DNA of 64,000 nucleotides. Origin: a virus. The position numbers and the translations under genes were made by a program. The stretch lies in IMG/VR virus record IMGVR_UViG_3300035698_005399, positions 1 to 64,000 of that record. One strand, given 5' to 3'. Shown one piece after another: positions 18,916 through 64,000 of the stretch. The notes under the pieces were generated by a model. The model ran no database searches. It saw only the letters and a program-made list of their open reading frames with translations, and was not told the origin of the DNA. Every line of letters starts with the position of its first letter. Position 1 is the first letter of the stretch.

Positions 18916-18926
18916 ATAATAAAATA

Positions 18927-20774
18927 ATGAGTTTATTCGGAAACAACATAAGTGGAGATTGCACAGACTGCCCAGATATAACTTCATCATGGATACTTAC
19001 TGATGGTATTACATCACAAGTAGTTGAACAAGATGAATCAGTTATCGTTACTAATGGAACTGGGATATTAGCTACAGTTTCTGCAATTAACACATTGACA
19101 ATAACACTAAATGCAAACATTGGTGATTTATTAAATGTATCTTCTACAACTCCTGCTATAGGAAATGCATTATTATGGAATGGTTCATCTTGGGTGCCAC
19201 AAAGTATGAGCTTAGATTTTGATTGCTCAGATTTAAATGCGTGTAGTATTGGTAATCTTGGCGATGTACTTATTGAAACAGAGTTATTTGATGGTATTGT
19301 ACTATCATATGATTCCGCTACAGAAAGCTTTGTGCCATCACAACCTGGATTTACAGTAGAAGTAGGAGTAGAATCAGCCTTTATGGTTGTTACTGATGCA
19401 GTATATACACCATCAGTATTGAAATTTGAAGCTACTACTGCTGGTGGGTTAGCTGTATCCAATGATTTCACAGATGCCACAACTGAAATTGTACGTTACG
19501 GTATAGATATTTCAACAGCTAGTCCTGGTGATTACTTGATTTACAGTGGAGATTCAGTAACATGGACAAGTGTTACACCAGGCGCTTATACATTCCAGTG
19601 TTCTGAACTAGCTTCTTGTTCATTAACCGCGTTAGGTGACGTTACAGGCTCTCCTTCAGCAGGTCAGGCACTAGTTTATGATGCTGATTTTGGAGTATGG
19701 TCTCCTGCTACTATTAGTGGAACCTTTGCGGGCATCACATTAGCTGCAGATTCAGGTACAAGCGAACTAGTAGAATCTGGTGATACCCTTACTCTTGCTG
19801 GTGGTCTTGGTATTGATTCAGTTGTTAGTGCGTCAGACACAGTAACATTTAGTTTAAACGCATCTATAGATGATTTAACTGATGTAGATATCACAGGTGC
19901 TGCTAGTGGTGACATATTACAATTGAATGGTTCTGGTGATTGGGTACCACTTACTCCATCTACCATTACTGATACTAATATTGGACTAAATAACCTAACA
20001 GTACCTACTTTAACCAATAGGATATTATCAGGTACAACTACAACAAGTCTATTAACATTTAATAATTTTGGAACAATTAGTCTTCTTTCTATTAATGACT
20101 TAACTCTTGATTCTTCTTCTGGTGTAATTTCTATGGGTGATACAATTGTAACAGATGTATCAGCTATTAGATTTACAGATCGGTCAAATCCATCAGATGC
20201 TTTTATGTGGAATATTGGTGAAGGTGGTAACAATACAGTCCAGACTCCTTATTCAGATGATCTATCTGTTCAATCAAGACTAGACTTTAATTATAATTCT
20301 GGAACATTACCACACCAATTTCAAATCTTTGAAGATGGTCATATTGGAATTAATCAAGCATACTACCTGCCAAATAATATTGTAGGAGCTTCTGTTAATT
20401 ATGTATTAACATTACTTGATGCTACTTCTGGCGAAACCGGATGGCAAGCAAGTTCGGGCTCAGGTGCAGTAGAACTATCAGATCTTACCGATGCTGATAC
20501 TACTGGTTTAGCAGATGGAGACTTATTAGGATATGATGGTGCAAACTGGGTTCCAGTAACCCCATCACAATATGCAGTGGATTCAAGTACTGGATTAACT
20601 TCTGGTACAATAGTTACTCTTTCTGCAGCTACAGTGAATTTAATCTTAGTGGCTAGAAATGGTCAAATTCTATATCCTGGAACAGACTATACCCACACAA
20701 CAGGATCAACAACTGTAACTTTTATACCAGCATTTTCTGGTGGAGAAGATGTAATAGTACATTACTTTAAATAA
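18927..20774 (+). CDS. Tail fibre with repeated GDxL...WVP units
   Basis: A 615-residue fibre-like protein composed of Thr/Ser/Gly-rich beta repeats. At least four copies of a motif of the type 'G(D/N)xL-x(4)-(G/S)xxWVP' can be seen: NALLWNGSSWVP, DYLIYSGDSVTW, DILQLNGSGDWVP and DLLGYDGANWVP. Two are followed by CSDLNACS and CSELASCS, a duplicated two-Cys loop. The last 80 residues (VARNGQILYPGTDYTHTTGS, then FSGGEDVIVHYFK) form a typical phage adhesin tip, predicted as a beta sandwich. Function: recognition of the host surface, inferred. Confidence 0.8.
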   Translation: MSLFGNNISGDCTDCPDITSSWILTDGITSQVVEQDESVIVTNGTGILATVSAINTLTITLNANIGDLLNVSSTTPAIGNALLWNGSSWVPQSMSLDFDCSDLNACSIGNLGDVLIETELFDGIVLSYDSATESFVPSQPGFTVEVGVESAFMVVTDAVYTPSVLKFEATTAGGLAVSNDFTDATTEIVRYGIDISTASPGDYLIYSGDSVTWTSVTPGAYTFQCSELASCSLTALGDVTGSPSAGQALVYDADFGVWSPATISGTFAGITLAADSGTSELVESGDTLTLAGGLGIDSVVSASDTVTFSLNASIDDLTDVDITGAASGDILQLNGSGDWVPLTPSTITDTNIGLNNLTVPTLTNRILSGTTTTSLLTFNNFGTISLLSINDLTLDSSSGVISMGDTIVTDVSAIRFTDRSNPSDAFMWNIGEGGNNTVQTPYSDDLSVQSRLDFNYNSGTLPHQFQIFEDGHIGINQAYYLPNNIVGASVNYVLTLLDATSGETGWQASSGSGAVELSDLTDADTTGLADGDLLGYDGANWVPVTPSQYAVDSSTGLTSGTIVTLSAATVNLILVARNGQILYPGTDYTHTTGSTTVTFIPAFSGGEDVIVHYFK

Positions 20775-41806: not shown

Positions 41807-44800
41807 ATGAGATCAGTTAATGCTGGTGGTTCTAAAGAGCCAATTAAAACAGGAGAAGTAGTTAATTCAGGTAATACTGATAATTCAATTGAATTTAAAA
41901 AATTAAGATCTGTAAACCCCTCATCGGGTACAAGTTTTTATGCTCCTGATCCAAAAGGGCAACATCAAGGATTAAATCTAGAAGATACTTATAATCAAGA
42001 ATTAGTAAATAAGGTTATTGCAAATAATCAATCAGGTTATGATAAAGCATTTAATGCTATTGTTGGTGGTATTGCATCTGGTGGTTTAACTGCTGTTGAA
42101 GACTTGAGTTATATGGCTCAATCTGCCGCAGACCTTCTCAGTAAAGGTAAATTGATTGATGAGTGGGAAAGAAATGCTGTTGCTGAAGCAATGCAAAAAG
42201 CTAAAGAAAACTTATCAGAAGCGTTACCTATTTATGGTAATCCTATGGGATTTTGGAATTCTACTAAATCAGTACTTGATTCAGCTATTGGATTTGCATT
42301 ACCCGGCGCTTTGGCTATTAAAGGTGTGTCTGCTATTCAGAAACTACCAAGAGCCTTACAGCTCGCAACACGTTCTAAGAGAGCACATGCTTATTTAGAA
42401 ATGATGCGAGCTAGTGGTGGAGTAGAAAGAATTACTAATGCTCTTGCCGCAGGTACTTTACAGAACCATGCTGAAGGTGTTATGATGGGAATGGAGGTAT
42501 ATGAAAATACTTTAAATAATCAATTAGAAGCAAATCCTAATGCTACAAAAGAACAAACAGATAGATATGAATTAGCAGCTAATGATGCTGCTGATAGATT
42601 TTTAGTGGCTAACAGAGCAATGATTTTAAGTGACGCGTTTAGTTTACATGGTATTTATCAAGGTAAACAAATGGTGCGTAATTTAATGAATGCTCCAGGT
42701 TGGCAAAATAGATTTCGTCAATTTGGTACAAGCTTAGTTAAACCTAATGCTGACAACCTAATTTTACAAAATGCTAAAGAAGGCGTTGAAGAAATCTATC
42801 AAGGTGTACAACAAAAGGAACAAGAATATCAAGCTTTAAAGAGTGCTAATTTAGATATTAGTACATATGAAGCAGAAACGTTTGATAGAATTTGGGGCTT
42901 TATTACAGAACCCACTACATTATATGAAGGACTATTAGGATTTGTTGGCGGTGGCGCACAGAGAATTATAACAGAGGCCGCAGCAGGCAAATTCTCTTCA
43001 TCATCTAGAGCACAAAAGGCTCAAGCATATGAACAACAACAAGCAGTAATTCAAGCATCACAAGAATATCTAGATGGTTCATTGCGTGATGTTAGAAAAG
43101 TTGTAAATTTTGTAGAGCAAGCATCAGGAACAGAGTCTAGTGTACTAGGCGAAACAGTAATGGATAAAAAATTCATTGAAATTGCTGTAATGAACTTTGA
43201 AGCAGGTACCACGGAATCATTAGAAAGACAATTAGATGCTATTATTGAGAATGAAGAAGGTACTTATGAAAAAGAAGCTATTAGTGATGCTAGACGACAT
43301 AAAGAATTATTAGGCAAATTAGAAACTCAATATATTAAATTTGCTAAGTATGAAAATCAATTAACTTTATTTGATAATAGACAAGCATACGATCTAACTA
43401 ATAGATATGCTGATGATGTTAACAAGAGAAAGCAAATAGCATTTACAACATTACAAAAAGAAGCTGCCTTATTAGTTGAAGGACAAACTATTGCTCAAGA
43501 TGAAAATGGTGTTATTAAAAATGCTCCATTCATACTTGATCCTACTTCAGATACTTTAATAGGTGTTGATGATGCAGCTAAAGAAAAATATGAAAAGGCT
43601 CTAAATCAATTAAAAGATACAGAAGCTTACAAAGAGTGGAAGGCTTTAAGTAATCAACATGATAAATTACTTGGTAAAAGAAAACTATTAAATGATGCAT
43701 ATAAAAGAGATATTGATCCAACCAGACAAGTAGATTTATACAGAGTTAGAAAAGAAAAGGAAGAAAAAATTGTTAAAAGGGCTGCAGAAATTGTTCAAGA
43801 AGAAATTGATGCTGCACAAGAAGCAGCAGTAAATGAAAGTATAGAGAAGAAAAAAGCAGATGCTCCAACAAAAGCAAAAGCTAAGCCTACAGAAACCACT
43901 GAAGAAAAAACTACTCCTCTTAGTGAACAAGAAGAAGCTGAACAATCATTTCTACCAGTACCTCTTGCTACTAATGAAGATGGTACTACACAAGAAGGAC
44001 AAGATGAATCTACTACTGAATCATCATTAGAGGCCATGTCTAAAGAATTGACATCTACTGGTCTTATGACTGCTCCTGAACTTGATAGAGTTGATGAGGC
44101 TAGAAAGATATTAGCTAAAATTAAAGCTGATATTGCAGAAGGTATTAAGAATGGTTTAACTGTAGAACAAATTGTAGCTCAGGTATTGTCTAAAGGATAT
44201 AATTTTAGTTCAGATCAAATTGATAGTTTATATGATTATATTGAATCGCGTATTGAAAGATATAATAGATTAGGCGCACGAGATTCTTTAGATCCAATTG
44301 GTGATCTTAGAGAATTACATGAGGCTGAAGCATTAGCTGAAACAGAAGAAGAAAAAGGCGAAGTTGAAATTGCAATTGCAGAAATAAACAAGCCTTCGGT
44401 ATTTGCACCAGTTGATGCTCAACAATTATTTGATCATTACATAGAAACTATTAAAGGAGCAATTACTCCTTGGAGTACAATAGAAGATATTATTGAAGCT
44501 CTTAAAGCTTCTGATGCTGATTTTGCTGATAGATATGAAAGAACTGATAAAGAAACTTTTCATGCTAAAATTGATAACTTAGTTACTGAATTTCTTAATG
44601 ATGCGTTTGAAGAAGAAGTTGACCAAAATCAAAGACGTTTAGAAGACGATAGACAGAAAGATGAAGTTACTCAAGAAAAAGAAGATGCTGTTGAAAAAAT
44701 TGATGAAAAAACCAAAGAAAGTACTGTTCTTAATTTGGAAGGTGCTGTTATTGGATTAACATATAGAGCTAGTATTTCGAGTAGTGGTGATGTTAATGCT

Positions 44801-47800
44801 GAAACAATTGAAGACTTAGAGGCATTTATTTTTGATAACCCTTGGTATAATAGTCTTATTCTTGACAGAGAGCATATTAAGGTTGGTTCAAAGCTTACAT
44901 TAAGAGTAATAGACCATCGTAGAGATGGTAAAAAATGGACACATAAAGTAAAAGGCGTTGATGTAAACCAAGATGTATTTAAGGAAGAAGTTCCTATTGA
45001 AGAATATATGGACAAAGTATACATTGGTGCTTTTGATAGCAATGATGAAATGATTGGTTTAGTATATGCTCCATTCCAAGTATCAAATTTTAAAGGCAAG
45101 CAAGCTAATAGAAAAATTAGACAGGCTGTTGTTGAAAATGGTGATGTTGAAATGGAAGTAGATACTATTACGGCTGGTGCGATAGCTCGTATGGGCAAAA
45201 GGGCTGCTTTCGCAACTAATATGCCAGATAGTCCTATTTTATTAAATGATGGTACTATATTTACAGGCGATCACCCTCCTAAAGGATTTCCATTATTATT
45301 TAAAGGAGAAGATATTAAGTCATATAGAGGTACTACATTTACTTATATTCAAACAGTGGATGGGCCAATTCCAATTCCTTTAAACGTAAATAAAGCTAGA
45401 AATATAGATGGCGTTATAGACATCTTGATTAAAGCTACAGAAAGCTTTTTCACACAAGATACTAAATCAGCAACAGAATTTAGAGACACCATTAAAGAAA
45501 AAACCAATATTGATATATTTAGTGAAGCAGGATTAAGAGCTTTCTTTAACAGATATGTATATGCTGCTGATGGCGGTATTATGAGCGATATGGCAAAAAG
45601 AAAATCTACATATGGTGGAGTTTCTATTTGGAATAGAGAAGGAGTATCTATTGTTGAATATGGTTTAGGTGGTGAAAAGAAAACAAATAGTTTCAGTGCT
45701 GCAAGAATGGAATCTAATCCAGAAAACTTGGGTGTGGCTATGAAATCTTTAAGAAATGCATTAGCTCATACTTTCCTTAAAGTAAATAAAGCTAATCTGG
45801 ATGGGTTAGATAGCAAATATACTGTATTAACTCTTGACAAAAATGGTAGCATTCATGATATAAATGAAGGAAAAACATATAGAGAATTTCTTGCAGAAAA
45901 AGTATTTGCAACAAATGTTGCTACACCTAAGCTAAGCAATGGTAAGAGAGCACACACCATTAGTGATGTGATTACATTGAAACCTGTAGGAGAGCAGCTT
46001 AAAAGAGCTGTAGAGAATCCTACTGTAGAAGTAAATGAAAAAGAAGAAGAAGCTATAGAAAATACTGCTGAAACTAGAGCAAAAGCAATCTTGGCCAAAA
46101 GGAAAGCTAAAAAAGCTAATACTGACTTAGATGATTATCTACCAGATTTTGATTCTGATAAATCTGATACTAAATCATCACCAGACATTATAACTATAGA
46201 TAATGACGATTTATTAATTGAACATCTTACTTCTACGGAACAGATTCAAATTATAGATTATCTTGCTTCTGAAATTGCTAATCTGGCATTACAAAGTGAT
46301 AATCTTAAAGCACAAGATGCTGATATAAGTGAAGTATTTAGAGGTTTTGAAAAAAAGCTTAGAGATTCTGTTGAGACACAAGAATGGTTGGCTGGAATAG
46401 ATGACACATTTAATTTAGAAGCAGCTAAAGCCAAAGTTAAATCTCTTATTGCTAGAATTGATTTTCTTGAAAAATTAGTTAAAAATAGATTATCTGTTAT
46501 TGGTGTTGTTAATGAAAATAACACAGAAGTTGCCGATACTTTAATAGAACGTAATACTTATAGTGAAGGATTTAGTCTTACATTAAATCCTAAAGATACT
46601 GCGGGTGCTAAGCTTAAGTATTGGTTGATGCGAATCAAGATGGAAGCCAATGGAGAGACTGTTCAATCAGATTTTACAGAAACCACAGGTGTAGAATTTG
46701 ATAGATATATCCCATATGATCATGCTTTTGAAGTATTGAGTGAAATTACTGCAGGACATCCTGCTGATTGGGATACTATGTTAGAAGTCATTAGAATAAA
46801 TCAAGGTAATCTTGTTTGGTTACCAGGTTTATATAATGAGATAAAAGATGTAAAAGACGAACAATTACAGAATCAGTTTATTACTGCTATGACCAAGCGT
46901 AATACAAACATGAAGAAAGCAGCATTTCGTCGTAATGCAGAAAATGAATTCTTCTTTTCTGTTATAGATGAAAACTCTAACTCTGTCACACAAGCTACTT
47001 TGGAAAAATGGCAAATTAACTTCTTGAATAATGAAAAAATGTTCATTCATAAAGAAGGCAAAAAGACATTAGATAAAGATCGTTTAAAAGAATTAGAAAG
47101 AATTCATGATGCATTAACTCTTCGTTTGATTAAAAGTGAAAATGTGCCACTAGCAGAAATCAATGAGTTGTTAGGAGAATTTGGTATCTCTATATCTAAA
47201 AAGATTTATGATAAGCTTGCTTCTAAAAATAAAGATGGTCATTTAACTCTTTTTAGAAATGGTGAAAAATACACTTATAATATAGCTCAAGTTTTTCAAG
47301 GATTTGGTCCATTTAGTAAAAAAATATTAATTGCCCCATTAGCAAAAGATGATAGTATTACTGACGAGTTTAACTTGTTTAGTGATAACAGTTTATTTTC
47401 AATGGCTAGATATGTTGGTCAACATGATCCAACACTTTCTTCTAACAGTTTTAGAGTAGGTGATAAAAGTATTTATGCATATCGCCTAAACAACTTGATT
47501 ACTGAAAGAATAGAAGAATTAAAAGACCCGCGTAAAGCTTTGCCATTAATGAAAATGGCTTACAACAAACACGCCGGTATTTTAGAACACATGTATAAAA
47601 AAGAAAAAGGTGAATTTGTCTTTGATGAAAACGGATTACCCATTATCAAAGATGAATCATTTGTTGACTTGTTTCAAATATCAGACTTATCACTAGAAGC
47701 ATTAAAAGACCTAACCTCTTCATTAGAAGGTGCTGGTCTTATAGATCTAGATGAAGGTAGTCATGAATTTGCTAAAGTTATTTTATACCAAGCTAAACAA

Positions 47801-50800
47801 AGAAGACTCAAGCACTCTCAAAAAAGAGTTGGTACTATGTTATTTCCAACTTTTTCTGATAAGACTGGAGCAGACATGGTGCAAACTTATCTTGAAGATG
47901 TAGTTTTAAATGATGATGGTACTTTATCAGATCAAACTGCAGAACTAATCTATCAAAGAGTAGTTAGACCTGAAGTAAATAGAATTAAAGCAAATGCGAA
48001 TCGTAAAGAAAAATATAACATCAAGTCATATAATGCTGGTGCCGCGTTATTCTATGCGTTTCCAGAACTAAATGATAGAGAAGCATTCCCAGAACTATAT
48101 GATAAGGGTATACTTAAGCCTATGGATATAGTTTCAAAGGCCGCTATTAGAAGTGCTATTAAAGCGCACTATCAAAAACTAATTGATAATAAAGTAGCGG
48201 ACTGGAAGAAGCATGGGTTAGATGATAAAATGGATAAAAACTATAAGAAATTATTAAGAGAATCTATTGCCCAAAAAAATATCACTCCAGAACATATGCT
48301 TAGGGCTGCTGCCGCTGATTTTGAAGTAAACTATACATTGAACACAGCAGATATGTTCAAATTGTTTCATGGTGATCCAGCATTATATTTTAAAATTAGC
48401 GATAAGGATGTCAAAAACAAACAAAAAAACAAAAAGAATTTAAATGCTGCTGACTATATACAAATTGTAAAAGATACATTTACTAACGTTGGTAAACGTC
48501 TAGCTGCAGATATTGCACCGGGTCAAAACATTGCATATGATTTCAAATCAAGTTTCAGAATGGTATTGTTACCAGATCAGAAAAGGGAATCAACGTCTTT
48601 ACCTTATTACGCAAGACTTAAGATCAAAGGACTCAATGACTACAAAGAAATTGAAGGCGCAGATGCTCAAGAATTTACTACATTCGCTGAGCACTTGGAG
48701 ATACTTTTCAAAATGGGTAAGCTACCTACTGGAGTTTATAAAAATGCGTTAGAGAAATATACCACCTGGGTCAAAAAAGAAAAGGCTGGAATACCTCTTA
48801 CAAAAGATGATTATATTAGTAAGAAAGATTTAGGATTGGTGATGCAACCACTTAAACCAGTATATACTAATAACATCGCAACCGATGGTGTTTATCGTAG
48901 AATTTATATCAAGTCTTCATCCATTCCATTACTTCCACAGTTAACCAACGGTTTAGAAATAGACAAGTTGCGTAAAGCTATGGAAAGAGATGGTATTGAT
49001 AGAGCTGCATTTGGTACTGCGTTTAAAGTAGGTGCTCCACTTAATCCTATTGAGGGCATGTGGAATCCCGATAGTACAATTAATGAAGATACACTTAGCT
49101 TCAAAGATTCTCCTGCAGTATTAGTTCTTCCTAGAAAAGGATTTAGAATTCAACAAGAGATTCCTGATAAGGATGAACAGGTTAACCCTGGTTCACAGGA
49201 AAGAAAGCTTCTATTCACTGACCTATTGCATATAGATGGAATGAAAGAGTTGAAAAATGAATTTAATTCCGCTTGGGATTCATTATTTGAATTGCGTAAA
49301 AAGGTATTGTATAACGAACTAAATGATGAAAATAATAAACTAGATTTCAATAAGCTTCAGACAATGTTAAAGGAAGAAGCTGTATCTCGCAACTGGCCTA
49401 TCAATGATAGACTAGCATTAGAAGTAATGAATGATCAGTTCACACTGCCTCTATGGGCAATGCAGTCTAGAGGACGTATTGAAGCATTACTTAATAGTAT
49501 TATTGACAATAAAATTCGTAAGATTAAGTTTCCAGGCAAATCATTTGTACTTGCCACAGAAGAAGGTTTTAGACAACTACAGGGAACTGATTTAAAAAAC
49601 AGTGGTATTAAGTTTAATAAATATTGGAAGGGCGAATTAACACATACTTCTGCTGACAAACAAACAACTGATGTAATTGTTCCTTGGAAATATACTAATG
49701 ATAAAGGTGAAAAAATACCCATCCCTTTAACTTCAGAAGGACTGGTTGATACTGATAAATTAGGTGATGAAGATTTAGGTAGAATGTTTGGATTCCGTAT
49801 CCCAACACAAGGCTTGAATTCAATGGCTAACATTCGTGTAGTAGGGTATTTACCTGCTGAAATGGGTGATGTTATTATTGCATCTAGAGATTTTACAAAG
49901 CAAATGGGTTCTGACTTTGATGTTGATAAATTATATTCATACAGAAAGCATTACTATACTGATAATCAAGGTAAGATAAGAACCATTACAGAAAAGACTA
50001 TTGCTGCAGATCTCCCCAAACATATGCAAAACAAGCTTGTAGAAATGAAGTTGATTAATAAAATAATTGACATTCACTATCAAGTAATGGATAATTCAGA
50101 TGTGGAAATCCAAAAAAGAATTGCAGAACCACTATCTTTTCAAGAACTTAAAAAACAAGACGCTGAAGGTAATGAAATTGGTCTTGCTAAAAAACATGAT
50201 GATTTAAGAAATCAAAATACTGATAAGAGTTTCTTCTCACCAATGTCAAGTAATTATCAAAGAGGTAAATTGATTAATGGTACTGCTGGTAAAGCTGGTG
50301 TTGGCGCATTCTCGTTAGACTCTGTGTTTAATGCTATGATTCAAGGTAGAAATGTAACTGTTACTAATTTCCAAAAGACTATGTTTGGAATTACAACTAA
50401 TGGTGATTTAAGTAGTCCGTTTGTTCTATCAGATAATGGTAGAACTAAAGGAGAAGTTGTATCAGGATATCAGTCTGCTGCAGTTGATAATGAAAACGAA
50501 CAGATTCTTGACAAGTTAAATATTAATAAACATACATTTGCTTTCATTCGTGCAATGAATCAATTAGGGTATGAAGAATCTCATGCGGCAGCTATTTTAA
50601 ATCAGCCAATTATTAGAAAACTGGTTGCGAGATTAGGTGCAGCAGAATCTCCTTTGTCTGATGATCAAGTAAATGATGATAGTGTATTACTAGACGAACT
50701 TACAAAAGAATTTGAAGAAATCAAAATAAACCCAGATATAAACTTATCTGTTGAAGAATATGAAAAGGCTATCCCAGGTGATAAGAGTGTTCCATACTAT

Positions 50801-53800
50801 GCACAAATTCAAATAGAGGCTATTGAAAACTTTCTTACTATACGTAAATTAGGTAGAAGATTAGGTACCTTTCAAGGCTTAATGAATACAGACTCTGCAG
50901 GTATTGGTAAGAACATGATGTTTACTTTTACCAAGTATAATGATGCTCAACAAGCGGCCAAGCAATCTATTACTTTAGATGGAGAAAAAGGTAATATTAC
51001 GAATATGGATTCGTTAATTAATCCCAATGCAGAAACTCCTACTAATGAATTTTCTAGTATGTCTAACAGACATATATTAAAGACTGCCTATGAACTGTTT
51101 GGAGTATTTTTTCCATATAATACACCAGGCTTTAGAGAAATGGTTCACCAAACTAGTACTGTGTCCAATGAAGACTTTGATAGTAGTTTGAACCAGAAGA
51201 CTAATAATAGAAATAAATTATTTAGTCACTTTATGAGCTATACATATAGTGCAATGTTTGAAGATAATGAAAAATTATATTTTGATTCAAAAGATAAAAA
51301 TGCACTAGGACAGAATATTTTAAAGTTACAACAATCTGAAATCAAAGGAAATAAATTCTTACGAAAACTTAAGGTTAGGTTACAGAGAGGAATAATTCCA
51401 ACAACCATTACTATTAATGCTACTAAAGAAGATTCAAGTCAAGATCTTGACACTCACATTGCATTTACTGAGCTATTAAATTCTACACAAGAAATTGATG
51501 GGGTTAGGGTCAGTGATATGGCTAGAGATCTTATTAGTTACGCATACTTAACTGGTGGACATCAACAAGCCACACAGTTTACAAAATATATTCCTGTATC
51601 ATATTTAGTGAATACAGATTTTGCTGACAAATTGAACAAATTAGATTTCAATAACAAGGCCGCTTTATTAAATATGAATCCCAATATTCCAATAGAAGAA
51701 CCCTTCTATAAAAGATTGGCCGGATTTACTATTCAATATGCTCAACATAATCCTTGGGTGCTTACACAAGATTCTACATTAGATCATAACAAAGAAGTTA
51801 TCTACGATAAAACTATTGTAGATGAAGCTCCTAGTATTGTATCAAAAAGAGTAGAAGAACCCAGTGGTAAAGCCAAATGGGTAATCTTCATAAAGACTGA
51901 TATTAATGGTGAACCCGCGCTTATGCGTACTGATAAACTTGGTGGTTCTCAAACAAGAGAATATAACAAGAATGAACCCACATCTAACAATACTAAATTT
52001 GATAAGACTAAGAATAAGAAAGTCCTTCAACCTAGTCCTAAAAAAGTTGATTCTACACAACCTAAATTGGTTGAACCAGCAAATAAAACTAATCCATTAA
52101 ATATTACTGCAGGCAAGAATACTGATAATATATTAATTAGTATCTTATCACATCCTGATATTTCACCAGAACTAAAAGCATACGCACAAGAGCTTGCCGA
52201 ACTGGGTATTCTTAATGACAATATTACATGGAAGATACTTGATAAAAGTAATCCGGCTAAAGGAAAGCATCACGGAAATGCTAAAGGTTCTACTATATTT
52301 ATTAATCCTGATAGACATGCTACTGCAGAAGACTTAGCAGAAACCATATTACATGAATTGACACATGCTATTACAGCATATCAGATTCACTCATATGAAA
52401 AGAATAAAAACTCTGTATCACCTAAGATGCAAGAGTCAATGGCTAAGCTGGAACAATTCATGGATAAAGCTCAAGAAATATTTAAAGAGCAAAAAGAAGA
52501 ATTAAAGAAGAAACTAAGTACTGAGGAATTTAATAAATTAGAATATGCGTTAGGATTAAATGCGGCTAATAAAACACCTTTATCTGGGGTAAGAGAATTA
52601 CTTGCTACAGCACGTACTAATAAGACTGTAAAAGACTTTCTTAATAATAATATATGGCAAGGTAAGAAATCTTTAATGGAAAGATTCTTAGAACTAATTA
52701 GTAGAATCTGGAAAGACCTTGGTATTAAAAATGGTGGTGATGTGAGCAAAGGAGTATTGGCAGAGATGTATAATATTGTTCAAGAAAGTAATAATGTAGC
52801 AAAAAAGCCAGATATTAATGATTCAGCATTAGGAATTAAAGATGATGCTTATTCTGATAAATTACCAGCTTTTACTGGAGATCAATGGAATGCTAAGAAT
52901 GCTGCTGAGATTGAATTAGGCATGCGTCACAAAGATGGTGCACCTAAGAGATATTCTAATTACGAAAGAGCGTTAGCTAGGCTACAGGCATTACGCAAGA
53001 AGCACCCACATAAGAAGATGAAGATGGCCAAGGTCATGGGTGAACCAGGAGATAATAGAGTCTATTATTCACCAGCTTTAGAAAATGAAATGTATGATGA
53101 TTATCTTCCAATGTTTGATTTGGATGAAGAATCAAGAGTATATGCAGACTTAGAATCTGTTATCAAGTCACAATTACAAGAGGTTAATAGAAGAATTGGT
53201 GAATATAAGAACATTCTTAGGAATGAGCATATGTCTATAGCAGATAAGAGAGATGCTGTTGCTGCAATGGATAGGTTAAACACTAGAAGAAAAGATTTAG
53301 CTGAGTCAGTTAAAGCTTCTAAAAAACTAATCTCACCAAGAGAATTAGGTCCATTTGGAGAAAAGCATTTACAAGAGATTGAAGAAATTGTTGATAAGGA
53401 TGATATGAATGCTTCTGAGATAGAATATGCAAATAGACTAATTCACTTATGGCAAGCTGCTGGCAAGAGAGATTTAAGACCAGATGAAGAACATGTCTTC
53501 TTAACAAGAGAAGAATTAGAAAACGATATGTGGTTTGATGGTGATGAAACTTTTGCTGGATTCAATTATTATGCTAATAAAGCTGCTAAGTTTAAAAGTA
53601 AGCTGGCTAATAGAGAACGCGCTATTGTTGGAAATTTTGTAAGAAAGTATACTAGAACTGAATTATCAGATGATGATATTTTTGGTGCTATTACTGATGC
53701 ATACTTATTATCCTCAATGACATTAGATGTATCTAGACATAATGATCCAATGCTTAATGCAATCTTTATTGGAATTAAATCTAAGATAAAAGCTGCTAAC

Positions 53801-56608
53801 TTAGAATATGACCGCAAAGTAAAAGAATTTACAAAACTTATCAAAGTTGCTTTACCTGAGTTAAAGAAATTATCAGAAGGAAATAACCCTTATGAAATTT
53901 TCCTACAAAAGGATAAAGATGGTGAACTTACTGGGGGATTAATTTTTCCATTTAGTCAAGACTTCTTTGATAAAAGATCTGAACTAAGACATAAAAGTCT
54001 TAAATCTGATAAAGGATATGAGCAATTTGTAGATTGGAAGAGATCTAATCTAATGATAATGGACCCAAGGATTCTATTTCCAGATGTTGAATTATTCAAG
54101 CGTCAACAATATAGTGATGCTATGCGCGAAAAACATATTGCTGAACTAAAAGAACAAATGGGAGAAGAAGTATATGAAAAGTATTACAAAGAATTAGAAA
54201 ATAAAATTGGTCAATTCAAAGCTACCTACGAATATAAGAAGATGACTTCTACTGATGAAGAATTTGAAAATTGGAATAAAGAAAATTCACCATACTGGTA
54301 TGCTAGACTAATCAATGATAAGAATAAAATTACAGGTTCTGATGGTAAGAATATCTATTCATATGGATGGGAATATACTGTAGAGATTCCTAGAAAAACT
54401 AATAAAGTTGGTAAAGAAACAGGCTGGTATGATAAGAACTATGATAAAGTTCATCAGAATAAAGCTGTTAGTGAGTTGTATGAATTTATATCAAGTCAAT
54501 TGACTGAAATGACCTCATATTTACCACCACACATTACCAAAGATATGCGTATTAATACCCTACCAGACTTAGAAGCAGCATGGTTAGAAGAAGTAAATGG
54601 TAGTGGAATGTCTGCAGCAGTAGGCATGGGTCGTATGATGGATGATTTAAAAAGAGTACTACGTTCTGAAGATAACTTAGAACAAATCAATCAACCATTA
54701 GATCCATTAACAAAGCAACAAGAACGTTTTGTTCATGCTAGAAATCCAAGTATGTTGGAAAGTAAAGCTACTCAAAAATTAAATATTGCCAAAGCTAAAT
54801 ATCTAGCGGATACAGGAAAGAACATGCCATTCAAAGTGCAAGTTGCTACCAAGAAAAAGATTGTTGATGAATTAGTAAGAAGCTCAAGAAGATCCTTAGA
54901 TTTGGAAAAAATCCTAAGAGGATATATTGCATCATCTACATTGTTTAAGCATAAATCATCTTTACAAGATGAAGTCAAGCTTGTTGAGAATGTATTTATG
55001 AAACGAGTGGAATATGAAACAAATTCTGTTGGTGATAAAGTAACAGATGGCTATGGTAGAGATATCTTATCTCGTGCTAATCTAGCAAACTATAAGTCAA
55101 TGCTACAATATCACTTGGATCATTTCTACAATCTTCCTGCTGAAAAAATTATGGGTAAGACCAATAAAAAACTATTGCTCACTGAAGAAAAAGCGGTTAA
55201 GCAAAGTATTGATGAAGCACAAACTGCATTAAATGAATCTTTAGCAGCAGGCTCTATTGAGCAAGAAGAATATGATGTACAATCTAAATACTTAGAAGAA
55301 CAACTTAAAGGACTTGGTGGTGTAGTAACTGGTTCTGGTATGGTAAATCTAGTATTGCGTTATATCCACTTTAAAGGTATGGGTTGGAACGTATTCTCTG
55401 CATTTTCTAACATGGGATTTGGTGTAATGGCCAACCTAGTAGAAGCAGCAGATGGTAGAACATTTACTACAAAAGAATTCTGGCAGGCAATGAAAATTGT
55501 TAAAGGTAGTATATTTAAAAATGCTACATTTAATCAAATGCAAACTGCAGATGCCATTAAGATTAGAAGCATCATGGATAAATATGACTTCTTAAAGACA
55601 AGCAAGAACGAAGTATATCGTTCACAACTGCATAATCAATTTGAAAAAGGTAGATTTTTATCTCCATATAACTTAACTGATAGATCAGAATACTTTAACC
55701 AAGCACCTGTTGTTGTAGCTATTATGTTACATCAAAAGATTAAGAATCTTAAAGGAGAAGAAGTTAGTCTATGGGAAGCTTTTGATAAGAATGGTGAATT
55801 CAATACTGCAGAATATGGAACAAATTGGCTGGTAGAAAAAAAGGGGGGAAGTCCCAGCCCTGAGATATCTTTCAGTATTCAGGTTGACCAAGCAATTAAG
55901 AGAATTCATGGTAACTATGATCCAGAGAGTCCTTTGCAACTTAAAGAAACAGCTTTAGGTAGAGCATCTGCACAATTTAGAACATGGTTGTTTGAAGGTA
56001 TGGCTGGTAGATTTGATACAAGAGGTGATAAAAATGGCATCTATGATGATGCTGCTGGAATTTATCTTAAAGGTCGTTATGTTTCATTATTTCAAGTAAT
56101 GAGAGGTAATGAGGAACATAGCGGAATTAGTAATCTACTATTTACTACAAAACAATTATTTAGAAAACTTGCATCTGCTGCTCCATTTGTAGATATGCCT
56201 ACAGAATTTGATAAAAGATTCAGTGAGGTAGATGCTGCTAACATGAGAGGCAACTTACAAGAGCTTGTTACATATGGTGTCTTATTAGGTCTTGCTGCGC
56301 TTCTAAAAGGTGCTGCTGGAGATGATGATGATATGGCAATTGCCAATTTATTACTCAATCAACTTAATAGATTACAAACGGATGTTGAAATGTATATTAA
56401 TCCTGCCACTTGGACTAAAACTGTATTAGATGATCCAATTCCTGGTACAAAAGTAATATCAGATTTTAGCAGATGGATGATTTCAGCAACTGAATTTGTT
56501 CAAGGTAAAGATGGTTCTGGAGAAAAAATGTTTGATAATACACTCAAAATGACTCCGGGTCCTGGTCAAATTAAAAGATTATTTGACGCATCAGAACAAG
56601 TATATTAA
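41807..56608 (+). CDS. Giant virion RNA polymerase with zincin motif
   Basis: A 4933-residue protein. The RNA polymerase core lies around residues 2100-3000, where RIPTQGLNSMANIRVVGYLP precedes the catalytic loop GSDFDVDKLYSY with D2703, D2705 and D2707. This is the DxDxD motif of single-chain crAss-like and YonO-type polymerases (two double-psi barrels). A zincin-like metallopeptidase motif, ETILHELTHAITA, has H3516, E3517 and H3520. The N-terminus (MRSVNAGGSKEP) carries the GG motif of the cargo proteins. Low-complexity acidic linkers occur near 650-760 and 1440-1490. It is likely packaged, ejected and used to transcribe early genes. Very long fused polymerase forms are known from some crAss-like groups. 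Confidence 0.85.
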   Translation: MRSVNAGGSKEPIKTGEVVNSGNTDNSIEFKKLRSVNPSSGTSFYAPDPKGQHQGLNLEDTYNQELVNKVIANNQSGYDKAFNAIVGGIASGGLTAVEDLSYMAQSAADLLSKGKLIDEWERNAVAEAMQKAKENLSEALPIYGNPMGFWNSTKSVLDSAIGFALPGALAIKGVSAIQKLPRALQLATRSKRAHAYLEMMRASGGVERITNALAAGTLQNHAEGVMMGMEVYENTLNNQLEANPNATKEQTDRYELAANDAADRFLVANRAMILSDAFSLHGIYQGKQMVRNLMNAPGWQNRFRQFGTSLVKPNADNLILQNAKEGVEEIYQGVQQKEQEYQALKSANLDISTYEAETFDRIWGFITEPTTLYEGLLGFVGGGAQRIITEAAAGKFSSSSRAQKAQAYEQQQAVIQASQEYLDGSLRDVRKVVNFVEQASGTESSVLGETVMDKKFIEIAVMNFEAGTTESLERQLDAIIENEEGTYEKEAISDARRHKELLGKLETQYIKFAKYENQLTLFDNRQAYDLTNRYADDVNKRKQIAFTTLQKEAALLVEGQTIAQDENGVIKNAPFILDPTSDTLIGVDDAAKEKYEKALNQLKDTEAYKEWKALSNQHDKLLGKRKLLNDAYKRDIDPTRQVDLYRVRKEKEEKIVKRAAEIVQEEIDAAQEAAVNESIEKKKADAPTKAKAKPTETTEEKTTPLSEQEEAEQSFLPVPLATNEDGTTQEGQDESTTESSLEAMSKELTSTGLMTAPELDRVDEARKILAKIKADIAEGIKNGLTVEQIVAQVLSKGYNFSSDQIDSLYDYIESRIERYNRLGARDSLDPIGDLRELHEAEALAETEEEKGEVEIAIAEINKPSVFAPVDAQQLFDHYIETIKGAITPWSTIEDIIEALKASDADFADRYERTDKETFHAKIDNLVTEFLNDAFEEEVDQNQRRLEDDRQKDEVTQEKEDAVEKIDEKTKESTVLNLEGAVIGLTYRASISSSGDVNAETIEDLEAFIFDNPWYNSLILDREHIKVGSKLTLRVIDHRRDGKKWTHKVKGVDVNQDVFKEEVPIEEYMDKVYIGAFDSNDEMIGLVYAPFQVSNFKGKQANRKIRQAVVENGDVEMEVDTITAGAIARMGKRAAFATNMPDSPILLNDGTIFTGDHPPKGFPLLFKGEDIKSYRGTTFTYIQTVDGPIPIPLNVNKARNIDGVIDILIKATESFFTQDTKSATEFRDTIKEKTNIDIFSEAGLRAFFNRYVYAADGGIMSDMAKRKSTYGGVSIWNREGVSIVEYGLGGEKKTNSFSAARMESNPENLGVAMKSLRNALAHTFLKVNKANLDGLDSKYTVLTLDKNGSIHDINEGKTYREFLAEKVFATNVATPKLSNGKRAHTISDVITLKPVGEQLKRAVENPTVEVNEKEEEAIENTAETRAKAILAKRKAKKANTDLDDYLPDFDSDKSDTKSSPDIITIDNDDLLIEHLTSTEQIQIIDYLASEIANLALQSDNLKAQDADISEVFRGFEKKLRDSVETQEWLAGIDDTFNLEAAKAKVKSLIARIDFLEKLVKNRLSVIGVVNENNTEVADTLIERNTYSEGFSLTLNPKDTAGAKLKYWLMRIKMEANGETVQSDFTETTGVEFDRYIPYDHAFEVLSEITAGHPADWDTMLEVIRINQGNLVWLPGLYNEIKDVKDEQLQNQFITAMTKRNTNMKKAAFRRNAENEFFFSVIDENSNSVTQATLEKWQINFLNNEKMFIHKEGKKTLDKDRLKELERIHDALTLRLIKSENVPLAEINELLGEFGISISKKIYDKLASKNKDGHLTLFRNGEKYTYNIAQVFQGFGPFSKKILIAPLAKDDSITDEFNLFSDNSLFSMARYVGQHDPTLSSNSFRVGDKSIYAYRLNNLITERIEELKDPRKALPLMKMAYNKHAGILEHMYKKEKGEFVFDENGLPIIKDESFVDLFQISDLSLEALKDLTSSLEGAGLIDLDEGSHEFAKVILYQAKQRRLKHSQKRVGTMLFPTFSDKTGADMVQTYLEDVVLNDDGTLSDQTAELIYQRVVRPEVNRIKANANRKEKYNIKSYNAGAALFYAFPELNDREAFPELYDKGILKPMDIVSKAAIRSAIKAHYQKLIDNKVADWKKHGLDDKMDKNYKKLLRESIAQKNITPEHMLRAAAADFEVNYTLNTADMFKLFHGDPALYFKISDKDVKNKQKNKKNLNAADYIQIVKDTFTNVGKRLAADIAPGQNIAYDFKSSFRMVLLPDQKRESTSLPYYARLKIKGLNDYKEIEGADAQEFTTFAEHLEILFKMGKLPTGVYKNALEKYTTWVKKEKAGIPLTKDDYISKKDLGLVMQPLKPVYTNNIATDGVYRRIYIKSSSIPLLPQLTNGLEIDKLRKAMERDGIDRAAFGTAFKVGAPLNPIEGMWNPDSTINEDTLSFKDSPAVLVLPRKGFRIQQEIPDKDEQVNPGSQERKLLFTDLLHIDGMKELKNEFNSAWDSLFELRKKVLYNELNDENNKLDFNKLQTMLKEEAVSRNWPINDRLALEVMNDQFTLPLWAMQSRGRIEALLNSIIDNKIRKIKFPGKSFVLATEEGFRQLQGTDLKNSGIKFNKYWKGELTHTSADKQTTDVIVPWKYTNDKGEKIPIPLTSEGLVDTDKLGDEDLGRMFGFRIPTQGLNSMANIRVVGYLPAEMGDVIIASRDFTKQMGSDFDVDKLYSYRKHYYTDNQGKIRTITEKTIAADLPKHMQNKLVEMKLINKIIDIHYQVMDNSDVEIQKRIAEPLSFQELKKQDAEGNEIGLAKKHDDLRNQNTDKSFFSPMSSNYQRGKLINGTAGKAGVGAFSLDSVFNAMIQGRNVTVTNFQKTMFGITTNGDLSSPFVLSDNGRTKGEVVSGYQSAAVDNENEQILDKLNINKHTFAFIRAMNQLGYEESHAAAILNQPIIRKLVARLGAAESPLSDDQVNDDSVLLDELTKEFEEIKINPDINLSVEEYEKAIPGDKSVPYYAQIQIEAIENFLTIRKLGRRLGTFQGLMNTDSAGIGKNMMFTFTKYNDAQQAAKQSITLDGEKGNITNMDSLINPNAETPTNEFSSMSNRHILKTAYELFGVFFPYNTPGFREMVHQTSTVSNEDFDSSLNQKTNNRNKLFSHFMSYTYSAMFEDNEKLYFDSKDKNALGQNILKLQQSEIKGNKFLRKLKVRLQRGIIPTTITINATKEDSSQDLDTHIAFTELLNSTQEIDGVRVSDMARDLISYAYLTGGHQQATQFTKYIPVSYLVNTDFADKLNKLDFNNKAALLNMNPNIPIEEPFYKRLAGFTIQYAQHNPWVLTQDSTLDHNKEVIYDKTIVDEAPSIVSKRVEEPSGKAKWVIFIKTDINGEPALMRTDKLGGSQTREYNKNEPTSNNTKFDKTKNKKVLQPSPKKVDSTQPKLVEPANKTNPLNITAGKNTDNILISILSHPDISPELKAYAQELAELGILNDNITWKILDKSNPAKGKHHGNAKGSTIFINPDRHATAEDLAETILHELTHAITAYQIHSYEKNKNSVSPKMQESMAKLEQFMDKAQEIFKEQKEELKKKLSTEEFNKLEYALGLNAANKTPLSGVRELLATARTNKTVKDFLNNNIWQGKKSLMERFLELISRIWKDLGIKNGGDVSKGVLAEMYNIVQESNNVAKKPDINDSALGIKDDAYSDKLPAFTGDQWNAKNAAEIELGMRHKDGAPKRYSNYERALARLQALRKKHPHKKMKMAKVMGEPGDNRVYYSPALENEMYDDYLPMFDLDEESRVYADLESVIKSQLQEVNRRIGEYKNILRNEHMSIADKRDAVAAMDRLNTRRKDLAESVKASKKLISPRELGPFGEKHLQEIEEIVDKDDMNASEIEYANRLIHLWQAAGKRDLRPDEEHVFLTREELENDMWFDGDETFAGFNYYANKAAKFKSKLANRERAIVGNFVRKYTRTELSDDDIFGAITDAYLLSSMTLDVSRHNDPMLNAIFIGIKSKIKAANLEYDRKVKEFTKLIKVALPELKKLSEGNNPYEIFLQKDKDGELTGGLIFPFSQDFFDKRSELRHKSLKSDKGYEQFVDWKRSNLMIMDPRILFPDVELFKRQQYSDAMREKHIAELKEQMGEEVYEKYYKELENKIGQFKATYEYKKMTSTDEEFENWNKENSPYWYARLINDKNKITGSDGKNIYSYGWEYTVEIPRKTNKVGKETGWYDKNYDKVHQNKAVSELYEFISSQLTEMTSYLPPHITKDMRINTLPDLEAAWLEEVNGSGMSAAVGMGRMMDDLKRVLRSEDNLEQINQPLDPLTKQQERFVHARNPSMLESKATQKLNIAKAKYLADTGKNMPFKVQVATKKKIVDELVRSSRRSLDLEKILRGYIASSTLFKHKSSLQDEVKLVENVFMKRVEYETNSVGDKVTDGYGRDILSRANLANYKSMLQYHLDHFYNLPAEKIMGKTNKKLLLTEEKAVKQSIDEAQTALNESLAAGSIEQEEYDVQSKYLEEQLKGLGGVVTGSGMVNLVLRYIHFKGMGWNVFSAFSNMGFGVMANLVEAADGRTFTTKEFWQAMKIVKGSIFKNATFNQMQTADAIKIRSIMDKYDFLKTSKNEVYRSQLHNQFEKGRFLSPYNLTDRSEYFNQAPVVVAIMLHQKIKNLKGEEVSLWEAFDKNGEFNTAEYGTNWLVEKKGGSPSPEISFSIQVDQAIKRIHGNYDPESPLQLKETALGRASAQFRTWLFEGMAGRFDTRGDKNGIYDDAAGIYLKGRYVSLFQVMRGNEEHSGISNLLFTTKQLFRKLASAAPFVDMPTEFDKRFSEVDAANMRGNLQELVTYGVLLGLAALLKGAAGDDDDMAIANLLLNQLNRLQTDVEMYINPATWTKTVLDDPIPGTKVISDFSRWMISATEFVQGKDGSGEKMFDNTLKMTPGPGQIKRLFDASEQVY

Positions 56609-61563: not shown

Positions 61564-61918
61564 TTTGTAACAATTCTACAAAGTCTTTTGCTTTCATAAC
61601 AATTAACTCTTCTTCTTCTTTTTTCCCTTTCCTGTGTGCGATTATTACAGGATACTCCGATTCGGGACTATTTGGAGGTAGCATTGTACTAATTCTTGTT
61701 TCAATTTCATGTATTAGCTTAGGATAATTAATCCCGCTTGCTACATGTTTACATTGAAACAAGTAAGGTATAAATGCTAGGTCAACGCCGCAGTCGTCTA
61801 ATAATCTGCTGGCATGTCTGGTTGTTTTGCAATGTTCGTGTCCTAATTGTCTGAATATTTTTGCCCATTTACGTTCATATCTATGACCTACTTCTCTATT
61901 TCTTTTTCCATTTATCAT
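61541..61918 (-). CDS. PD-(D/E)XK endonuclease (resolvase-like)
   Basis: A 125-residue protein with the layout of small Holliday-junction-type or restriction-type nucleases: GHRYERKWAKIF with E15, then SRLLDDCGVDLAFIPYLFQC with D46 and the Q55-x-K57 active-site pair. The first eight residues are basic. In the operon with nucleotide-metabolism genes it may act on replication intermediates or as a general phage nuclease. It overlaps the upstream gene (ATGA). Confidence 0.75.
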   Translation of the reverse strand: MINGKRNREVGHRYERKWAKIFRQLGHEHCKTTRHASRLLDDCGVDLAFIPYLFQCKHVASGINYPKLIHEIETRISTMLPPNSPESEYPVIIAHRKGKKEEEELIVMKAKDFVELLQNAKNKNI

Positions 61919-62646
61919 AAATATGGAGTAGTTTTAACTAACTCCTTTATTGTTTTTACTTTATTTACGATTTCGTTCAATCCTAAATTTGCAATTACAT
62001 TTTCATCATTGTGCCAAAAATTATTAAGTTCTGTTAATGGTAAGCATCTAGTACGAATGCCTAAATTTTCAACATTGTTCAACAATTCTCTAAATTTATT
62101 CTTATAGGTACTACTTTTTGTAGTATTATAAAACTCATCATTATACCAATATTCAAATGCTTCTACATCTATAGGCATATAATTATCAATAACAATCCTA
62201 TTTATAATATACTTTCGAAATTCCGGCTTAACCATTAAATTAGAATGAATAATCTTTTTATCTAAAATAGAACTACTATTCAAAATTTGAATTCCTGCAT
62301 TTATCAATAAACTATAATTTATCCCATTAGATGAAAACTCATTACTCAAACTAAATCGCTGTTTTATTGGAACTATACCGTGCATCTCCTTTATTTCAAA
62401 TGTATTTGCATTTACATATTGATGTGTTATATAATTTTCAAGATTTGTTAAATGATCATATAGATCCACATCAATATTATTAGTAAAAGCAAGCAACTTA
62501 ATACCCCGCTCAACACTACCACTTTCATAGAATTCATGATGCAAACCATCGTTAAGAATAATAGTTTTAAACATACTTCCTATTTGATTACTAATAGTGT
62601 TAATATCAATATTTTCTTCAAATATATCATACATATTATTATGCAC
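61915..62646 (-). CDS. Unknown protein next to the E1-like gene
   Basis: A frame of 243 codons if started at GTG 62646 (a later ATG is four codons in). It is Asn/Ile/Leu-rich and A+T-rich, without cysteines in clusters. Segments are GLHHEFYESGSVERGIKLLA, DLYDHLTNLENYITHQYVNA, and VDVEAFEYWYND-like in the second half. No family is recognised. The open frame continues upstream for another 68 codons that read like real protein, so the true start may be elsewhere (see 62647-62838). Its stop overlaps the endonuclease start. Confidence 0.6.
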   Translation of the reverse strand: MHNNMYDIFEENIDINTISNQIGSMFKTIILNDGLHHEFYESGSVERGIKLLAFTNNIDVDLYDHLTNLENYITHQYVNANTFEIKEMHGIVPIKQRFSLSNEFSSNGINYSLLINAGIQILNSSSILDKKIIHSNLMVKPEFRKYIINRIVIDNYMPIDVEAFEYWYNDEFYNTTKSSTYKNKFRELLNNVENLGIRTRCLPLTELNNFWHNDENVIANLGLNEIVNKVKTIKELVKTTPYL

Positions 62647-62838
62647 TGCTTTTTGAATTTTATTATTATAAGATTCTAATAAATGAGAAAATACATTATA
62701 TGGAAAAGGAATTAATTTATCAAAATTAATACAGTTTAGAATATCTTTTTTGAAAAGATAACCTCGAAAATTTTCAAATTTATTATCGGCTTGTGTTTTT
62801 GTAATATCAATAATGATATCAATTCTAGAATTTTTAAT
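62647..62838 (-). other. In-frame upstream extension lacking a standard start codon
   Basis: The 187-base gap before the GTG at 62646 is open in the same frame back to 62850 and encodes plausible protein: RIDIIIDITKTQADNKFENF, then RGYLFKKDILNCINFDKLIP. No ATG, GTG or TTG opens it; the first candidates are ATT codons at 62838 or 62823. Possibilities are a non-standard ATT start, a +1 shift from the E1-like gene (which ends in an A/T run at about 62834-62845), or an indel. Confidence 0.5.
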
Positions 62839-63583
62839 TTTTCGTCTCCGTTAATACACACGGTTCGCAACTATTGTTCCCATCTATAATTATATTTTCT
62901 TGTGTTGTAAAAGTAAACATTGGTAATTCATAGCAAGTTTTAACTGGAAAACTAAACATTTCAACTTGAAGATTCTGATTTGCGATAATATTCAAATATA
63001 ACTGTAACATATAAGCGCCAATAATGGCTCCATTATGAGATGTTGCCTTATAAGAACATGGTGCATCTTGTACCTCAGAATCATCAAAGAATTCAGCTTC
63101 ATATTGTTCGATCTTATCTGGTGTAACACAATAAACAATACCTGTTTCTGCACTCATTCTACCATCTATAAACAAACAATTTTCACCACCATTACTTTTA
63201 GTATGTTTTTTCCATGCATCAAACATTAAACGTCTTGCTTTCATGTTATCAAATGCTGAAAATACTACATCTGTTACAGTTGATTCTTCTACAAATTCAC
63301 CAACAGGAGTAATTTTCATTTCATCACACATTTTATCACAAACATCCATGACAGAATCTGATTTTAATGAACCAATATGATCTGTAAAATAAGCTTGTCC
63401 TCCAATATTATGCGTCTCAATGGTATCCATTTCATATAAATAAATGTTATACCCTACTCTACTTAAAAATATGGCAAGCCAGCTACCAATACCCCCGGCA
63501 CCACCCAGAGTGACATGATTGTCACCTGAGTTGTACCAGTTAGCATCGGTAAATCTAGCATGCATTTCGTTTTTTTCACTCAT
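62834..63583 (-). CDS. Ubiquitin-E1/ThiF-like adenylyltransferase
   Basis: A 249-residue protein with the ThiF/E1 fold. The ATP loop is GGAGGIGSW (27-35), the strand and nucleotide site MDTIETHNIGGQAYF (D52, N59, Q63), and FDNMKARRLM contains D112 or its neighbour. APCSYKATSHNGAIIGAYML places C176 where E1 enzymes carry the catalytic Cys. Two further Cys close the protein (NNSCEPC). It would adenylate and perhaps transfer a ubiquitin-like or sulfur-carrier protein. No such partner is in view; it may lie right of the window. The lack of a JAB or E2 gene in view leaves its pathway open. Confidence 0.85.
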   Translation of the reverse strand: MSEKNEMHARFTDANWYNSGDNHVTLGGAGGIGSWLAIFLSRVGYNIYLYEMDTIETHNIGGQAYFTDHIGSLKSDSVMDVCDKMCDEMKITPVGEFVEESTVTDVVFSAFDNMKARRLMFDAWKKHTKSNGGENCLFIDGRMSAETGIVYCVTPDKIEQYEAEFFDDSEVQDAPCSYKATSHNGAIIGAYMLQLYLNIIANQNLQVEMFSFPVKTCYELPMFTFTTQENIIIDGNNSCEPCVLTETKN

Positions 63584-64000
63584 ATTGTCGATGTTGATAG
63601 TTTATATTTTGCGATTAAATCATCAAAAAATAATACTAAATCTTCTAATTTTTCTTTAGTAGCATTATCATAAATATTAATAGTAAGAAGCTGACTTCTA
63701 CAATTTGTAGCAAGAGCCAAATAATCAGCATCTTGATCAGCATCTACTGGGGAAATATTAAAATAATCTTGCGCTTCGTTTTCGAAACTATCTGCTAAAG
63801 CTTGAAAATAAGTATCAGTATTTTTAAGTGTAATTTTTCCAACTTTTAATACAGCATCATAAAGCAATAAAGCATGATATCCTGTTGCTGATAATGTAAT
63901 AAATTTACCTAAAAACTTTTTAACATCATAAGAAATATTTATTTGCGCCGCCAACGCCGGTGATTTTTCTTTTTGTGTTTTCCCTTCTTCTGATGTGATT
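63580..64000 (-). CDS. Partial hypothetical protein, upstream of the E1-like gene
   Basis: The frame is open to the right edge, so the true start lies outside; a TTG at 63954 is only an internal codon. Visible residues read ITSEEGKTQKEKSPALAAQI, then a helical region (NISYDVKKFLGKFITLSATG) and an acidic part (FENEAQDYFNISPVDADQDA). The end overlaps the E1-like start by four bases, so the two are co-translated. It does not end in Gly-Gly and shows no ubiquitin-like fold by eye. No family is recognised. Confidence 0.6.
   Translation of the reverse strand, partial: ITSEEGKTQKEKSPALAAQINISYDVKKFLGKFITLSATGYHALLLYDAVLKVGKITLKNTDTYFQALADSFENEAQDYFNISPVDADQDADYLALATNCRSQLLTINIYDNATKEKLEDLVLFFDDLIAKYKLSTSTI

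Follow-up and report, generated by a model that had tools for sequence, protein, structure and literature searches.

Our analysis concerns a window of 64,000 bases, which is the beginning of an 83,494-base virus record; coordinates above 64,000 refer to the same record outside the window, where the DNA is covered by the pieces L002 (60001-80000) and L003 (75001-83494). Close to the right end of the window lies the gene of a 249-residue E1-like enzyme. The original prediction had suggested that this enzyme is part of a small conjugation system, for example PRTRC or an E1-E2-JAB cluster, possibly a minimal or new one, as no E2, JAB or ubiquitin partner was in view. This description holds for the window, but not for the record, in which JAB, E2-like and ubiquitin-like genes lie immediately to the right. 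The partners seemed to be missing because the window stops at 64,000, whereas the record reaches 83,494. Extension to the right thus yielded all three, including a small ubiquitin-like protein (Ubl) ending in KSG-E, and with these genes directly adjoining E1 the system is of the proposed kind and not minimal. The genes of the region are as follows.

67111-68358, minus strand: metallophosphoesterase-like open reading frame (ORF)
66404-67114, minus strand: uracil-DNA glycosylase (UDG), neighbour of the operon
66165-66395, minus strand: Ubl of 76 residues ending in KSG-E, with a predicted ubiquitin fold
65770-66165, minus strand: small coiled and acidic, tail-like protein of 131 residues
64733-65773, minus strand: likely E2-like protein of 346 residues with H103-S-H105 and C120, assigned from model, motif and position
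63580-64770, minus strand: JAB/JAMM metalloprotease of 396 residues, assigned from a Prok-JAB match; the part from 63580 to 64000 lies inside the window
62834-63583, minus strand: E1-like activating enzyme of 249 residues with an ATG start, assigned from a Pfam ThiF match, invariant residues and its place in one phage clade
61915-62646, minus strand: possible divergent fifth component, X, of 243 residues, with a weak hhalign link to the X2 family

From the Ubl gene through E1, consecutive genes overlap by 1-38 bases and form a single operon. JAB and E1 share an ATGA overlap at 63580-63583. The predicted translational coupling of E1 to the gene upstream therefore stands; its partner is no unknown protein, however, but the C-terminal 139 residues of the 396-residue JAB, cut by the window end.

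The 249-residue protein matches Pfam ThiF (PF00899) over residues 21-203 with E=6e-17 and 62 bits, above a cut-off of 28.1. It carries one ThiF domain (ThiF/UBA type) and is the sole PF00899 match across the whole record. The E1-type motifs ascribed to this ORF are indeed present: the adenylation motif GAGGIG occupies residues 28-33, and the nucleotide-binding residues are conserved, with G28, G30, I32, D53, N59, K74 and D112 kept in 66-67 of 67 aligned relatives and G31 in 65 of 67. Cys176, named beforehand as the candidate catalytic residue, is invariant (67/67), in agreement with its predicted role. For the JAB, Prok-JAB (PF14464) scores 27 bits at a cut-off of 25, and E50, H124-x-H126, S134 and D137, all encoded outside the window, are conserved in 81-84 relatives with at most one exception each. 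A second JAB was sought across the record and not found, and a Pfam search detected no NlpC/P60 domain in the JAB protein.

Neither Pfam nor PDB sequence searches matched the E2-like protein to a known family. Its H105, C120 and G122 are conserved in 79 of 79 sequences. An AlphaFold model of a 329-residue relative (L017) features a helix (24-36) and a four-strand meander, then a loop with C130 and further helices, with pLDDT mostly at least 90 in the region of the first helix and the meander. Foldseek gave only weak PDB matches for this model (E 0.02-0.1), among the top of which rank the UBC-fold chains Ube2W and TSG101 UEV (E 0.03-0.1). The motif YMHSH...CxGxGPI resembles HPHV...LCxGxG of a planctomycete E2 and LCQGG of the PRTRC protein B, a likeness without statistical weight; in hhalign comparisons of the phage E2 with these two proteins just the Cys motif aligned, and not significantly. 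From fold layout, motif and position, we regard the 346-residue protein as a likely, not a proven, E2.

The Ubl family also had no match among Pfam and PDB sequences. An AlphaFold model of the 79-residue Ubl of locus L066, built on a 26-row alignment, shows the order b-b-a-b-b-b at a mean pLDDT of 85, and Foldseek against the PDB found ubiquitin and ISG15 as top matches with probability 1.00 (TM 0.53-0.71 across the top eight, best E 9.5e-4). As modelled, the Ubl has the ubiquitin (beta-grasp) fold. The domain is closed by an invariant glycine, G78 in L066 and G75 in the window phage, and the chain continues beyond it in 82 of 82 Ubls, by 1-4 residues in 14 of them and by at least 59 in the rest. 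Most relatives possess a precursor tail of 59-221 residues; the Ubl of the window phage comprises 76 residues and ends in SG-E. At loci with a short Ubl, a separate small acidic ORF usually precedes E2, and the 131-residue protein is that piece here. Because at least one residue trails the invariant glycine, the Ubl precursor would need trimming, and processing by the JAB is likely; a JAB gene is always close by.

Judged by eye, the precursor tails of L012, L026, L053 and many other loci begin with a SAP/HeH-like helical part and finish in an acidic helix, for example SEIDDMF. Such tails could hint at DNA binding. We keep this likeness as a hint, because the best Pfam score of any tail (L053, SAP, E=3e-4, 20.8 bits) stays below the cut-off of 23.9.

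Most loci encode a protein of 200-380 residues downstream of E1. Two families were distinguished, X1 with 57 proteins and X2 with 12, which hhalign shows to be homologous (95%, E 3e-8). In the window, the place is taken by the ORF at 61915-62646, which starts 187 bases after E1 and corresponds to the second unknown neighbour of the original prediction. phmmer found no homologues of this 243-residue protein, and hhalign joins it weakly to X2 (39%, P=3e-4). It is a possible divergent member of X.

The E1 sequence used singly as a query retrieved no relatives, whereas an 8-row E1 alignment (A1) found 143 in IMG/VR, of which 80 loci were kept. In named phages, tblastn detected E1 relatives in 81 records, chiefly of Steigviridae (Crassvirales) and of Flavobacterium psychrophilum phages, in whose neighbourhoods the same block occurs under the labels 'metalloprotease domain' and 'thiamine biosynthesis protein ThiF' and otherwise as hypothetical proteins. 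IMG/VR and named phages together, the window phage included, gave 88 loci, and iterated profiles were run over every ORF of these. The 88 loci include redundant ones (clustering leaves 66 distinct Ubls at 80% identity and 38 E1s at 60%); they contain E1 in 88, JAB in 86, the E2-like protein in 86 and Ubl in 82 cases. Wherever a locus reaches the Ubl, which is the case in 82, its genes stand in the order Ubl-E2-JAB-E1, and the other six end at a contig edge; the linkage across related phages that had been asked for beforehand is hence present. It is found in the cultured phage crAss001, in DAC15 and in Flavobacterium psychrophilum phages. In crAss001, profiles assign gp79 to Ubl, gp78 to E2, gp77 to JAB, gp76 to E1 and gp75 to X. 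Pairwise distances of the four proteins correlate with each other (Spearman 0.51-0.77).

The site of the cassette is constant: it lies in the replication block with primase, UDG, Holliday-junction resolvase and ribonucleotide reductase. It is not general to crAss-like phages, because the E1 and E2 profiles had no match in the genomes of three Suoliviridae, two Intestiviridae and Cellulophaga phi4:1. Among 84,980 species genomes scanned, only seven relatives were recovered. Three of these are on phage-resembling contigs (L092-L094), with the four-gene set in L092 and L094, and four come from a cellular planctomycete/Thermoplasmata operon (L095-L098). Plasmids contained distant E1s only.

In some loci the cassette genes are interrupted. 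In six loci (L006, L033, L049, L052, L062, L079), the ORF of a homing endonuclease splits JAB precisely where HxH is encoded, and such ORFs likewise split E1 at GGIG in L032 and L071 and E2 at YMH|SH in L090; in six of these nine loci, the endonuclease ORF is on the opposite strand. Rfam group I introns were found at four insertion sites, i.e., in JAB of L052 and L079, in E1 of L071 and in E2 of L090. Elements of this sort are commonly found lodged in the codons under strongest constraint. Insertion at catalytic codons is an independent sign of constraint on the cassette genes.

The window phage itself may be crAss-like: its TerL, portal and MCP match crAss-like PHROGs, and the nearest matches of its TerL, with some 30% identity, are in Suoliviridae and in Flavobacterium phages. 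Several other features of the record may be mentioned. A single ORF at 41807-56608 encodes 4,933 residues; its product could be a giant protein of the virion or of RNA-polymerase type, such as crAss-like phages have. A DNA polymerase, recognised by eye, is split over two overlapping ORFs (L002:17344-18408 and 18384-19202, minus strand). Finally, record positions 79783-82881 (L003:4783-7881, minus strand) hold three consecutive genes that make up an NAD-salvage set: one resembles nicotinamide phosphoribosyltransferase (PF04095, E=3e-29), the next is NUDIX-like as judged by eye, and another is CTP_transf-like (PF01467, E=3e-11). NAD-salvage genes of this kind have been linked to counter-defence, and the set may counter NAD-depleting defences.

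In a tree of E1 sequences, drawn without those of Bil and Cap2, all 38 non-redundant phage E1s fall into one clade (99/96), apart from PRTRC, MoeB, ThiF and TcdA, and this clade adjoins the E1s of the planctomycete/Thermoplasmata operon (95/89). The latter are the nearest cellular E1s (hhalign 99.9%) and a sister group, and their operon has the order Ubl-E2(Zn)-JAB-E1 in common with the phage cassette. However, it resides on cellular contigs, its E2 contains Cys-rich, Zn-binding-like modules that the phage E2 does not share, its Ubl is ThiS-like and by profile unrelated to the phage Ubl, and it is without a SAP/HeH-like tail. The plasmid system PRTRC (Iyer family 6d) comprises Ubl C, F, E2 B, JAB A and ThiF, and its order C-F-B-A-ThiF mirrors the phage order Ubl-tail-E2-JAB-E1. 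By hhalign, its E1 and JAB are related to the phage proteins at 98.8% and 81.5%, respectively, and both JABs contain AFFSxTD, whereas E2 and Ubl are unrelated by profile and the PRTRC E1s form a separate clade. With hhalign, the phage Ubl had no significant relation to either PRTRC C or the planctomycete Ubl. Moreover, 6d E2 proteins are without the upstream His (PMC1779556), unlike the phage E2 with its HSH ahead of the Cys. The phage E1 scores 29 bits against TIGR03736 (PRTRC E1), for which the cut-off is 145, and no PRTRC ParB-family protein and no proteins E/F were seen around the phage operon; they are present in L091 and L099-L106.

Bil, a bacterial defence system, is likewise a four-gene set of Ubl (BilA), E2 (BilB), JAB (BilC) and E1 (BilD), in which BilC trims BilA and frees its C-terminal Gly (PMC11354881). 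As described, BilA consists of two Ub domains and BilD of two adenylation domains (PMC11354881). By this description the phage cassette differs, since it has a single Ub domain (76 residues) and a single adenylation domain (249 residues), and it sits in phage genomes. From these comparisons, the phage cassette appears to be of the same broad kind as Iyer 6d/PRTRC and Bil, yet a distinct branch, because gene order, E1 and JAB are related to those of PRTRC but ParB, E and F are missing and the E1 stays below the family cut-off.

We therefore consider it probable, at roughly three chances in four, that the E1 belongs to a phage-encoded Ubl conjugation cassette, Ubl-(tail)-E2-JAB-E1. This cassette most likely serves Ubl activation, conjugation and deconjugation, and we infer the following order of steps. 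The Ubl would be made as a precursor, which the JAB cuts behind the invariant Gly. E1 would then adenylate that Gly using ATP and take the Ubl onto Cys176, from where it might be handed to Cys120 of the E2, beside the HSH motif. The Ubl could then become attached to target proteins at their lysines or at other amines, and the JAB might also strip it from these. No E3 was found. As targets, we can only guess at proteins, of the phage or of its host, that are located at replicating DNA, or at host proteins that are disabled early. A role linked to replication or to early takeover is favoured because the place of the cassette in the replication block is constant. On balance, we think that a phage lineage including the cultured crAss001 has a complete, self-sufficient ubiquitin-type pathway in its core replication block, with a JAB-matured Ubl that tags proteins in takeover or replication, although we hold this with less assurance than the assignment of the E1 to a conjugation cassette.

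The main rival for the purpose of the cassette is that the same chemistry serves inter-phage defence or counter-defence, by tagging rival virion proteins like Bil or by disabling host immune proteins, instead of replication. Bacterial E1-E2-JAB-Ubl systems such as Bil and CBASS Cap2/Cap3 are antiviral (PMC11354881, PMC10097602), and the window phage also bears NAD-salvage genes. This purpose is conceivable but the less probable one, as the cassette has a constant site in the replication block, not in a variable accessory region, and behaves like a vertically retained core set in its lineages. Alternatively, the Ubl could carry sulfur or act as a maturation factor that undergoes processing, activated and trimmed by E1 and JAB with no protein conjugation. 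ThiS/MoaD/CysO-type systems have E1, beta-grasp and JAB parts too, and the E1 fold is common to ThiF/MoeB. We consider this unlikely, given that the cassette never comes without an E2-like protein and an E1, each of which has an invariant Cys, that by eye no rhodanese, sulfurtransferase or sulfur-pathway gene is seen among the operon neighbours, and that NCBIfam ThiF and MoeB scores remain far below their cut-offs.

Phage-borne pairs of Ubl and JAB are also known from lambdoid tail assembly (TAPI/TAPK; PMC1779556), and a pair of this lambda gpI/gpK type might have gained an E1. TAPI/TAPK, however, are part of a tail module and come without E1 or E2, whereas the cassette lies in the replication module, apart from the structural genes, and its JAB, the only one found in the record, is without an NlpC/P60 match; such an origin is thus highly improbable. 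Least probable of all is an ordinary ThiF/MoeB cofactor enzyme, as the GenBank annotation of crAss001 ('thiamine biosynthesis protein') has it, which was also the outcome that the original prediction had named as its refutation. The E1 forms a separate clade in the tree, its scores against NCBIfam ThiF/MoeB equivalogs fall well short (e.g., 61 bits at a cut-off of 159, 19 at 377), and Ubl, E2 and JAB accompany it in 82 of 82 complete loci, by which a cofactor role is refuted in practice.

E1 and JAB had already been labelled singly in GenBank; E2, Ubl and the system as a whole are without description in the searchable records and papers. Our literature search, which did not extend to subscription papers, found nothing that links crAss-like phages to ubiquitin, and PMC7886860, PMC6235969 and PMC10172136 are silent on the subject.

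Bacterial Ubl conjugation has so far been known chiefly from plasmids or antiphage systems. That crAss-like phages have a complete set as a constant part of their replication block reverses this relation and suggests that these viruses bring their own protein-tagging machinery. If true, this would be the first full ubiquitin-type cascade recognised in phages. It provides function predictions for five crAss001 genes so far hypothetical or mis-annotated, gp75-gp79, and since crAss001 is cultivable on its Bacteroides host, targets, maturation and need of the system are directly testable. The cassette would moreover place a further deep branch of E1, E2 and Ubl in the early evolution of ubiquitin-like systems.
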